DNA from: Sediminispirochaeta bajacaliforniensis DSM 16054
Lineage (GTDB): Bacteria; Spirochaetota; Spirochaetia; DSM-16054; Sediminispirochaetaceae
NCBI RefSeq assembly: GCF_000378205.1
Contig: NZ_KB899422.1
Location: 1 to 64,000 of the forward strand
Length of the DNA: 64,000 nucleotides
Direction of reading: 5' to 3'
How positions within the stretch are numbered: position 1 is the stretch's first letter; every line of letters begins with the position of its first letter. Both the position numbers and the translations under genes were made by a program. Under the pieces are notes generated by a model that was not told where the DNA came from, did no database searches, and was given only the letters and a program-made list of their open reading frames with translations. Below are positions 33,585 through 36,820 of the stretch, in pieces.

Positions 33585-34441
33585 TGCAAGCCTACATCAA
33601 CAAAGCCGAAACGCTTATCGAAGCGGCTCCCTATATCAGGAAATTTTCAGGAAAAACCGTGGTAATTAAATACGGGGGAGCGGCAATGACAGACCCGCTT
33701 CTCGAGCAGATGGTGATGGACGATATCGCCCTTCTTTCGGTTTTAGGGGTGAAACCGGTCATCGTTCACGGCGGAGGGCCCGCAATTAATGCAATGCTGA
33801 AACGCTTATCCATCGAGCCCTCCTTTGAAAACGGCCTCAGGATCACCGATCCGCAAACCATGGAAATCACGGAGATGGTACTTTCCGGGAGCGTTAATAA
33901 GAAAATCGTGCAGATGCTCTCTGACCGTTCGATCCGTTCCGTCGGCCTTTCAGGCAAAGACGGGGGCCTCTTTGAGGCAAAACTCCATCGTCCCGACGGT
34001 AAGGATATCGGCTCGGTGGGAGAGATCGTGGCCTGTAACACCGAGGTTGTAACAGCACTCATGCAAAATGGCTTTCTTCCCGTCATAAGCCCGGTTAGTG
34101 CCGGAAACGAAGGCGATAGCCTTAATATTAATGCCGATATTGCTGCGGTAAAGATTGCAGCGGCCCTACACGCAACAAAGCTTATTTTCCTTTCGGATGT
34201 GCCCGGTGTGCTGCGTGAGATAGGCAATCCCACCTCACTTATCTCCACCATAAAGATCGATGAGGTCCCCGAGCTGGTCGCCGATTCGGTTATTACCGGG
34301 GGAATGATTCCCAAAATCACCTGTGCGGCCGAAGCGGTACAGAAGGGAGTGGAATCCGTCCACATCCTCGACGGAAAAAGCAAACATGCGTTGCTTCTTG
34401 AAATTTTTACGGACAAAGGAGTAGGAACCGTCTTATGGTAA
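33584..34441 (+). CDS. argB: Acetylglutamate kinase
   Basis: ArgB phosphorylates N-acetylglutamate. The 285-residue protein has the amino-acid-kinase motifs VVIKYGGAAM, VIVHGGGPAINAML, and IPKITCAAEAV near the end. The N-terminal helix (residues 1-20) that allows arginine-sensitive hexamers in some species is present in length, so feedback inhibition is possible but not proven. Its start overlaps the argJ stop by one base and its own end overlaps argD by seven, so the genes are coupled. Confidence 0.96.
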   Translation: MQAYINKAETLIEAAPYIRKFSGKTVVIKYGGAAMTDPLLEQMVMDDIALLSVLGVKPVIVHGGGPAINAMLKRLSIEPSFENGLRITDPQTMEITEMVLSGSVNKKIVQMLSDRSIRSVGLSGKDGGLFEAKLHRPDGKDIGSVGEIVACNTEVVTALMQNGFLPVISPVSAGNEGDSLNINADIAAVKIAAALHATKLIFLSDVPGVLREIGNPTSLISTIKIDEVPELVADSVITGGMIPKITCAAEAVQKGVESVHILDGKSKHALLLEIFTDKGVGTVLW

Positions 34442-35616
34442 GTAAAACATATCTTCAAAAAAACAGCGAAAACGCGCTTGAAACCTATGCACCTTTTCCC
34501 ATCGTTCTCGATCATGGAAAAGAATGTACTGTTACCGATGTCGACGGCAAGGAATATCTTGATTTTGTTGCAGGGATTGCAGTCAACATACTGGGACACG
34601 GCAACACCCGCCTGGCAAAGGCCATTGGACAGCAGGCAGAACGGCTGATGCACTGTTCAAATCTCTATCTTAATCCCGTAACCGTCGATTATATGGATGC
34701 ACTTCTTGCGTGTAGTGGCTTTGACAAGGCCTTTTTCTGCAACAGCGGAACCGAATCGATTGAAGCGGCCCTCAAGCTTGCCAGAAAGCGTGCCGGGTTA
34801 ACGGGAAAAGCAGGACGTGATATCGTAGCGCTGAGCGGAAGCTTCCACGGAAGAACCTTCGGGGCGCTTTCCGTTACCGGACAAAAGAAATATCAGGCCC
34901 CTTTCACCCCTCTTTTACCGGGAGTCAGATTCACCGAATCCAATAATCCGAAGGCGTTGGAAGAGGCTGTCGATGACTCTGTTTGTGCAATCATCATGGA
35001 GCCGATTCAGGGTGAGGGCGGCGTTAAGCCTCTTTCATCGGCCTTTGTTGAAAAGGCCGATGAACTACGGGAAAAGTATGATCTCCTCCTGATTTTCGAT
35101 GAGGTGCAGTGTGGTTTTGGTCGATCGGGAAAGCTCTTCGCCTGGGAGCATTTCGGTATCAGGCCGGACATCCTTTGCATGGCAAAGGCGATCGCCGGAG
35201 GCTTTCCAATGGGGGGTATCCTTGTCACCGAAAGGGCAGCGGCCTTTAAGCCAGGAGATCATGCCGCTACCTTCGGAGGTAACCCACTAGCTTGTGCGGC
35301 AGCCTCGGTCGTACTCGATGAGCTGACAAACAGGGGACTCCTCGCCCATGCGGAAGAGGTTGGAGCATATCTGGGGCAAAAGCTCGGAGAGCTGAAAGAA
35401 AAACACCCACATATAGTAGATGCACGGGGACTGGGTTTGATGCGGGGAATAGAACTTTCATCGGGATCGGCAGACGTCATATCGGCCTGCATGGACAAGG
35501 GATTGCTGCTTGTGAGAGCAGGGAGCGAGGTCATTCGTTTTGTTCCTCCCCTGATTGTCACAAAGGAGGAGATCGACAAGGCTATCTCAATTCTGGATGG
35601 AGTCCTGGGCCTATAA
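34435..35616 (+). CDS. argD: Acetylornithine aminotransferase
   Basis: ArgD is a class III PLP aminotransferase converting N-acetylglutamate semialdehyde to N-acetylornithine. In 393 residues it shows the phosphate-binding FCNSGTESIEAALKLAR, the DEVQCGFGRSGKLFAWE segment and the PLP Lys in MAKAIAGGFPMGG. It is the last gene before a strong terminator, so the operon covers only the four steps from acetylglutamate to ornithine. argF, argG and argH are not in the window. Confidence 0.95.
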   Translation: MVSKTYLQKNSENALETYAPFPIVLDHGKECTVTDVDGKEYLDFVAGIAVNILGHGNTRLAKAIGQQAERLMHCSNLYLNPVTVDYMDALLACSGFDKAFFCNSGTESIEAALKLARKRAGLTGKAGRDIVALSGSFHGRTFGALSVTGQKKYQAPFTPLLPGVRFTESNNPKALEEAVDDSVCAIIMEPIQGEGGVKPLSSAFVEKADELREKYDLLLIFDEVQCGFGRSGKLFAWEHFGIRPDILCMAKAIAGGFPMGGILVTERAAAFKPGDHAATFGGNPLACAAASVVLDELTNRGLLAHAEEVGAYLGQKLGELKEKHPHIVDARGLGLMRGIELSSGSADVISACMDKGLLLVRAGSEVIRFVPPLIVTKEEIDKAISILDGVLGL

Positions 35617-35643: not shown

Positions 35644-35683
35644 AAAAAAGGGACTGATCGCTTCAAACGACAGTCCCTTTTTT
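35644..35683. terminator. Bidirectional rho-independent terminator
   Basis: GGGACTG (35650-35656) and CAGTCCC (35671-35677) form a perfect stem with an A-run on one side and a T-run on the other, so it works in both directions. It ends the arg operon on the plus strand and the 56-residue basic protein gene on the minus strand. Confidence 0.92.
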
Positions 35684-35700: not shown

Positions 35701-35871
35701 CTACATCAAATCCTTTGGCTTACGTGCGGTGTTGCCGCTTGCTTCACACACGGCCATATGCTTCAGTTTGCCATTCTTAAAGACAGATTTCATCTTAATA
35801 TTTCCGCCCCAGCGACTGACGAGCTGCTGCGCTCCGCCACGACGAGCGTTCTTTGATACGCTACCTGCCAT
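35701..35871 (-). CDS. Small basic protein of 56 residues, unrecognised
   Basis: Begins MAGSVSKNARRGGAQQLVSR, continues with WGGNIKMKSVFKNGKLKHMA and ends with ARKPKDLM. It is rich in Lys and Arg, has one Cys and no membrane segment. GGGAG lies six bases before the ATG. A near-consensus promoter, a compact leader hairpin and a strong terminator frame it as a stand-alone, highly expressed gene. I do not recognise the family; the size and charge recall small ribosomal or nucleic-acid-binding proteins, but that is inference. Confidence 0.75.
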   Translation of the reverse strand: MAGSVSKNARRGGAQQLVSRWGGNIKMKSVFKNGKLKHMAVCEASGNTARKPKDLM

Positions 35872-35887
35872 AACAATCTCCCTTCAT

Positions 35888-35905
35888 AGGGTCTAATAAG
35901 ACCCT
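35888..35905 (-). promoter_or_regulatory. Leader dyad upstream of the small basic protein
   Basis: AGGGTCT and AGACCCT (on the transcribed sense strand) form a perfect 7-base stem with a four-base loop, between the promoter and the Shine-Dalgarno sequence of the 56-residue gene. It could be an operator or an mRNA structure controlling translation. Confidence 0.55.
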
Positions 35906-35917
35906 GTATTCATATAA

Positions 35918-35946
35918 ACTATACAATAAAAGCAAAGTTTCGTCAA
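35918..35946 (-). promoter_or_regulatory. Near-consensus sigma-70 promoter for the small basic protein
   Basis: On the minus strand TTGACG (35941-35946) is followed after exactly 17 bases by TATAGT (35918-35923). Both boxes match consensus at five of six positions, making this one of the clearest promoters in the window. Confidence 0.8.
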
Positions 35947-36011: not shown

Positions 36012-36305
36012 ATGAATCTTGCGAAAATTGTCCGAAGAATATGGATTCTTCCCATAGAGTTCTACAGAATTGTTATCTCTCCGGCCCTACCCGACACCTG
36101 CATTTATACCCCAAGCTGCTCATCGTATGGCAAAAAAGCCATACTTAAACATGGGATCCTGAAAGGTACACTTCTGGCCGTTTCTCGTATAGGACGCTGT
36201 ACAGGAGCCTTCTTTACCGGTGGTGACGACCCTGTCCCCGACCACTTCTCGTTCAAAGAGATCGGGGAGGGATATCGCCGCTTCCATCGCAGGAAAAAAT
36301 CCTAA
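36012..36305 (+). CDS. yidD: Membrane protein insertion efficiency factor
   Basis: YidD helps insert proteins into the inner membrane with YidC. The 97-residue sequence has the family hallmark CIYTPSCSSYGKKAILKHG, then the conserved RIGRC segment and the GGDDPVP motif. It is usually found between rnpA and yidC near the replication origin; here it stands alone beside unrelated genes. An amphipathic N-terminal helix (residues 3-22) is visible. No strong Shine-Dalgarno sequence was found. Confidence 0.93.
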   Translation: MNLAKIVRRIWILPIEFYRIVISPALPDTCIYTPSCSSYGKKAILKHGILKGTLLAVSRIGRCTGAFFTGGDDPVPDHFSFKEIGEGYRRFHRRKKS

Positions 36306-36319
36306 ACAGGGTAGATCCC

Positions 36320-36820
36320 CTATCTGTTATGCTCGGACAGGGCACCGGCATCCTCAAGACCGCTTCGATAGCCCTCGCTGTAGGCCTCTTTATAGGCCTC
36401 TCTCCAAGCCTCCCGATAACCGTCAAGGTATCCCTGATTGTAACTGTCACTACTATCCGATCCACCACCGTCACTTCCTTCCGAGTAATCGTCAAAGGTA
36501 AAGGTTATGGTACGATCGGCTGCATCGGAAAGATCAACCTCGTAACGGGTGTATCGGTCGCCGTCGATATCTACGGCAAGGACATCGTAGACGGCCGCAT
36601 CGGGATCGGACAACGGTACCTGCACATCACTTGATTCGCCATCGCGAACACTGTTGCCATTAAGCAGATCGTCCTGCCAATCATCAGAACTCGAGGGTGA
36701 AATATAAAGCTCATTGATGTCGTAGCCCGTTTGGTTACTAAAGGTAACGGTAAAGCTTTCCTGAGCAAACAGGATCGCCGTGACAAAAAAAAGCATTCCA
36801 CCGATAGTCAGTCGTTTCAT
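36320..36820 (-). CDS. Secreted protein with C-terminal (G/A)-x-x-x repeat
   Basis: A 166-residue protein with a signal peptide cleaved near ILFAQ. Residues 20-115 look like a small acidic beta domain ([19 protein letters not shown] and [20 protein letters not shown]). The C-terminus holds seven tetrads with Gly or Ala first and mostly Tyr or Trp second: [28 protein letters not shown]. This spacing resembles the GX3 helix motif of Yae1/Lto1 and the GxxxG repeats of FliH, though those are cytosolic. It is coupled to the uridine kinase gene by an ATGA overlap. Function unknown. Confidence 0.75.

Follow-up and report, generated by a model that had tools for sequence, protein, structure and literature searches.

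A short basic protein of Sediminispirochaeta bajacaliforniensis is a predicted spirochaetal bL38, from a ribosomal family with four-cysteine and cysteine-poor forms

Identity of the protein

The window, a stretch of 64,000 nucleotides from contig NZ_KB899422.1 of Sediminispirochaeta bajacaliforniensis DSM 16054, carries a gene for a 56-residue protein (35701..35871, minus strand, ATG start), which sequence and predicted fold identify as a homologue of the 50S ribosomal protein bL38. With high confidence, we read it as the spirochaetal bL38 of the large subunit, placed at 23S H95/H97, with an N-terminal SKN arm, in a cysteine-poor form, and expressed from its own promoter. It is a new member of a known, barely described ribosomal family, of which a putative zinc form is apparently undescribed.

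A preliminary description of the locus had picked out the short, basic reading frame, whose length and position hold, and had considered the product, of an unrecognised family, as possibly ribosome-associated. The family can now be named, and the guess about the ribosome was right. The best match among solved structures was chain Ai of 8fmw, which is bL38 in the 50S subunit of Borrelia burgdorferi (phmmer E 5.5e-16), in an alignment including all but one of its 46 resolved residues, and a profile search retrieved the same chain at 1e-23. The AlphaFold model of the window protein, which starts with MAGSVSKNARR, has a moderate pLDDT of 72.5; the SKN tail is its least certain part, with 57 for residues 1-10. 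Searched with this model, Foldseek returned 8fmw_Ai as the only match at E<=0.001 (E 7.6e-5, probability 1.00), and VIA returned it at Z 6.2 over 46 residues, the only match above Z 5, the next one being at 3.3. Together, these predictions give a beta-hairpin and a C-terminal helix, in agreement with the spirochaetal bL38.

In Borrelia burgdorferi, the Lyme disease bacterium in which this protein was first observed, bL38 was placed in density and identified as bb0162 by mass spectrometry (PMC10618245). Its whole resolved length aligns with the window protein, with 63 percent of residues identical when the folds are aligned, and the two proteins share the rRNA-contacting basic residues and the cysteine-poor form, although BB0162 comes from a different family within this class. 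The study covers one species, and the words Treponema, bL28 and "zinc ribbon" are absent from its main text (PMC10618245). A full-text literature search found bL38/bb0162 of spirochaetes treated in that paper alone, found no Treponema ribosome structure, and found no description of a bL38 zinc form or of a class-wide distribution, as far as the main text of PMC10618245 goes.

The window protein had no Pfam or NCBIfam match at E up to 10. Because the family has no model in these collections, bL38 is likely unnamed in most spirochaete genomes, and probably also in syphilis-type treponemes, as indicated by a locus (L190) from the same family as the treponemes, the species being presumed.

That the reading frame is a real gene is supported by its codon differences from its counterpart in a second genus of the family, 29 of which are synonymous and 11 amino-acid-changing, and by the homologues found across the class.

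Distribution in the spirochaetes

As judged from sequence searches, bL38 homologues are near-universal in this spirochaete class, with one copy in nearly every member. A single-sequence search matched 53 of 60 class members. Of 392 Spirochaetota genomes sampled, 213 matched, every one of them in this class; these are 213 of the 214 class members listed (the exception is G189), a count that leaves aside 159 non-matching genomes, not listed and of unseen class. A further sample, built around a different class, contained five genomes of this class, which all matched, and 55 others, none of which did. The homologue search proposed in the preliminary description thus reached far outside this genome, and the possibility raised there, that the protein has no homologue elsewhere, does not hold.

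A wider profile retrieved nothing at E<=0.001 from the seven misses of the 60-member search or from G189. Weak matches at E up to 10 (G037, G189 and others) were followed by a motif search of four loci, which found no family-like protein. Two families of the order of G012 and G037 are without bL38 (f10, 0/4; f29, 0/5), while all 17 genomes from the order's remaining families carry it. This points to loss or absence at the family level, and therefore bL38 would be dispensable on evolutionary time. Our genome survey was confined to Spirochaetota; in a wider named scan, at least 80 loci among the matches listed were all titled Treponema or another spirochaete, and the plasmids and phages searched held no credible relative.

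For comparisons across genera we used 73 bL38 loci (L001-L074 without L054, which is a bL28). Fifty-seven were mapped to genera and 50 were kept, one per genus, leaving out seven second members and 16 unmapped loci, which belong to genera (g33 and g84) that were already represented.

Four-cysteine and cysteine-poor forms

The sequences split the family into a four-cysteine form, found for example in Treponema, and a cysteine-poor form, found in the window genome and in Borrelia. Both cysteine pairs, C-x(1-3)-CGG and CxxC, are present in 23 of the 50 genera and neither in 26, where Ser and Trp stand at the first knuckle instead; these counts are not a frequency, because 20 loci were picked as likely four-cysteine members from lower-scoring rows. 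One genus (L070) has the second pair only. Four loci of the families f32, f77 and f79 were also of the four-cysteine form. Within families the cysteine form is uniform across the 50 genera. One cysteine, C42, is kept in all 50, and is the only one that the window protein, lacking both pairs, retains.

The split is also seen in the phylogeny. In a tree built without the cysteine columns (48 columns), a branch supported at 99/95 separates the cysteine-poor sequences from the rest, and the support is 100/99 with the full 57 columns; with so few columns and no outgroup, the tree gives no direction of zinc change. We infer that the bL38 family began with zinc. The four-cysteine form is predicted to be a zinc ribbon and a putative zinc binder. 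Its model matched bL38 best. Next came Rpb9 and ELOF1, with their zinc ribbons, and at lower rank archaeal and eukaryotic ribosomal chains of the L37A type, and these further matches (Z 2.5-3.8) are suggestive only. Against Pfam and NCBIfam, its members gave sub-threshold matches to generic zinc ribbons only.

Other ribosomal proteins, such as bL31, bL36 and uS4, exist in zinc and zinc-free forms. The separation in bL38, between a four-cysteine form and one free of the cysteine pairs, is likewise clean; differently from those proteins, no genome was found to hold a pair of both forms. Three genomes have two matches, and none of them is such a pair: G253 and G383 carry two four-cysteine copies each, and the second match in G214 is weak and lies within a 620-codon frame. 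The two cysteine states, together with the two family-wide absences, are natural experiments on bL38 function.

Contacts on the ribosome and the N-terminal tail

Borrelia bL38 binds 23S H95, the sarcin-ricin loop, and H97, as well as uL6 and uL14, and its rRNA-contact residues are K34, K36, R49, K50 and R52 (PMC10618245). These correspond to K35, K37, R50, K51 and K53 of the window protein, all basic. The columns of K35 and K51 hold Lys or Arg in 50 of 50 genera, R50 itself is kept in all 50, and the K37 column is Lys or Arg in 47. The K53 column is more variable (Lys or Arg in 35/50, Ser in 15/50). On the model of the Borrelia structure, the window protein would fold as a beta-hairpin with a short C-terminal helix and pack through this basic spine on H95/H97 between uL6 and uL14. 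There it would brace the sarcin-ricin loop, the site of action of translational GTPases, at its base. An effect on these GTPases was suggested by the authors of the Borrelia study (PMC10618245). bL38 would thus adjoin a universal functional site.

The N-terminal tail AGSVSKNAR (codons 2-10; 35842..35868, minus strand) contains S6, K7 and N8, which are invariant in 50 of 50 genera. Its counterpart in the cryo-EM structure is not seen: the nine N-terminal residues of Borrelia bL38 are not well resolved (PMC10618245), and the structure begins at residue 10, aligned to residue 11 of the window protein. Invariant yet disordered in the hibernating ribosome, the SKN motif may make its contact when the ribosome is in a different state. 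The tail is probably a flexible arm, which could make a functional, transient contact on the side of uL14, bL19 and the GTPases.

Relation to other ribosomal families

The name bL38 is also borne by a Bacteroidota protein, from which the spirochaetal one differs. The Flavobacterium johnsoniae protein belongs to DUF4295 (PF14128), where 7jil chain 4, named "50S ribosomal protein L38", stands beside 9i5t chain 15, named DUF4295. Its position on the 50S subunit is similar (PMC10618245), and like the window protein, it is short and basic. An orthologous origin, with bL38 as one ancient family diverged past sequence recognition, would account for the same pocket being filled, and an hhalign match of four residues containing IKM could be its trace. 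We consider this reading rather doubtful, since that alignment had a probability of 0.1, against one sequence as well as against two, the Borrelia study had no success in a translated search with the Flavobacterium protein, and the Borrelia protein lies 14 A away with a distinct internal structure (PMC10618245). In addition, the two DUF4295 sequences are without cysteines, whereas many spirochaete homologues are predicted zinc ribbons. No sequence similarity between the Flavobacterium and the window protein was detectable: the PF14128 model had no match in the window genome, with a positive Bacteroides control, and homology to DUF4295 is thus unsupported. The Foldseek and VIA matches listed for the window model do not include 7jil chain 4, although the two could still share a fold. 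Given the empty hhalign and PF14128 results and the failed translated search, the shared name and place may hide two origins. Tentatively, and at somewhat less than even confidence, we go further and propose that unrelated proteins fill the same sarcin-ricin-loop pocket in Spirochaetia and Bacteroidota, and that a spirochaete zinc ribbon lost its zinc once, on the lineage to Borrelia and the window genome, while keeping an invariant SKN arm with a function on the ribosome's GTPase side.

A second candidate relative is bL28 (PF00830), which shares with bL38 a beta-hairpin followed by a CxxC knuckle. The window protein might be a bL28 paralogue, duplicated inside Spirochaetota, and the genome does have a separate bL28: its sole PF00830 match lies elsewhere, in a gene of contig 13. 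A weak phmmer match joins the hairpin and third cysteine to an L28 chain (E 0.57), and hhalign with spirochaete bL28 (20 of 22 loci, L168 and L185 having yielded no protein) gave p 0.003 to 0.014 over 24-29 columns. However, the hhalign probability was just 3 to 11 percent, and the four-cysteine members resemble bL31, as well as many generic zinc ribbons, about equally weakly; the statistical support is too weak to call homology. We therefore did not adopt bL28 paralogy, which appears improbable. Among these spirochaetes, bL28 too exists both as a zinc-type and as a cysteine-poor protein (L165, L166, L171); in the window genome, a zinc-type bL28 (L054) accompanies the cysteine-poor bL38.

Promoter, leader and terminator

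The gene is preceded by a sigma-70-type promoter, TTGACG-17-TATAGT (35918..35946, minus strand), with 10 of 12 matches to the consensus, as had been described before. Taken alone it is not above chance, as four promoter-like sites were found in a 4-kb stretch and 4.2 were expected. Comparison of the sequences indicates that it is conserved: in the 120 nt upstream of the bL38 genes, the best match reached p<=0.05 in 22 of the 50 genera (2.5 expected), the score was at least 10/12 in 30, and TTGAC was present in 37. L003, from a second genus of this family, has TTGACG-17-TATAGT as well. bL38 would thus be expressed from a sigma-70-type promoter of its own.

From the -10 box to the ATG, the leader (35872..35917, minus strand) holds a Shine-Dalgarno-like AAGGGAG and the perfect 7-bp dyad that the preliminary description had reported and interpreted as a possible autoregulatory site (AGGGTCT/AGACCCT with a TATT loop; 35888..35905, arms 35888-35894/35899-35905). 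The dyad itself was confirmed (p about 0.03, from 200 shuffled versions of the 60-nt leader); the regulatory interpretation was not. Stems this strong, at p<=0.05, were found in 4 of 50 genera where 2.5 are expected, and L003, from the same family, has none, so that the conservation proposed as a check does not extend beyond the genus and a conserved structure is rejected. In the sole congener (L002) the dyad is kept with a G.U pair; this survival is uninformative, because the two leaders are too alike, differing at 1 of 76 nt. At up to one mismatch, the dyad has a single copy in the genome, which rejects a dispersed operator and, together with the restriction to the genus, a conserved autoregulatory site.

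These results also bear on a possible role outside the ribosome, in which the protein would act as a regulator that binds DNA or RNA and controls its own gene through the leader hairpin. Its small size, its basic character and the perfect dyad would suit such a regulator. We regard this as highly improbable, given a dyad that recurs at no other genome site and is confined to the genus, and given a Borrelia homologue described as a stable component of the 50S subunit (PMC10618245). For the leader of the bL38 gene, folding of the RNA predicts that the hairpin forms with unremarkable z values (-1.36 and -0.73) and leaves the Shine-Dalgarno region free. The dyad may have a genus-specific role such as mRNA protection, and with the ribosome-binding site accessible, the hairpin would at most protect the mRNA.

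Downstream, a dyad with perfect 13-nt arms and T runs on both strands (35644..35683; arms 35644-35656/35671-35683) resembles a bidirectional intrinsic terminator. The preliminary description had given the gene a strong terminator of its own. The inverted repeat is confirmed, the exclusive ownership is not, since with T runs on both strands the terminator would serve the converging aminotransferase gene too. Our terminator scan does not include this dyad because its 14-nt loop exceeds the limit of the scan.

Gene neighborhood

A class-III aminotransferase gene (34435-35616, plus strand) converges on the bL38 gene and yidD (36012-36305, plus strand) diverges from it, therefore the bL38 gene is probably transcribed alone. 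The adjoining yidD encodes a membrane insertion efficiency factor (PF01809); neither rnpA nor yidC was among the six neighboring proteins scanned. Further on (36320-36820, minus strand) lies a gene for a 166-residue protein whose N-terminus is signal-like and whose repetitive C-terminus is rich in Tyr, Gly and Glu; Pfam gave it no match up to E 0.001. An Rfam scan of the window returned no family.

At 3 of the 11 loci scanned in this way (L010, L031 and L064), a tRNA gene (Thr, Thr and His, respectively) lies just 5' of the bL38 gene, about 20 to 40 bases upstream and on the same strand, which suggests that there bL38 is co-transcribed with the tRNA.
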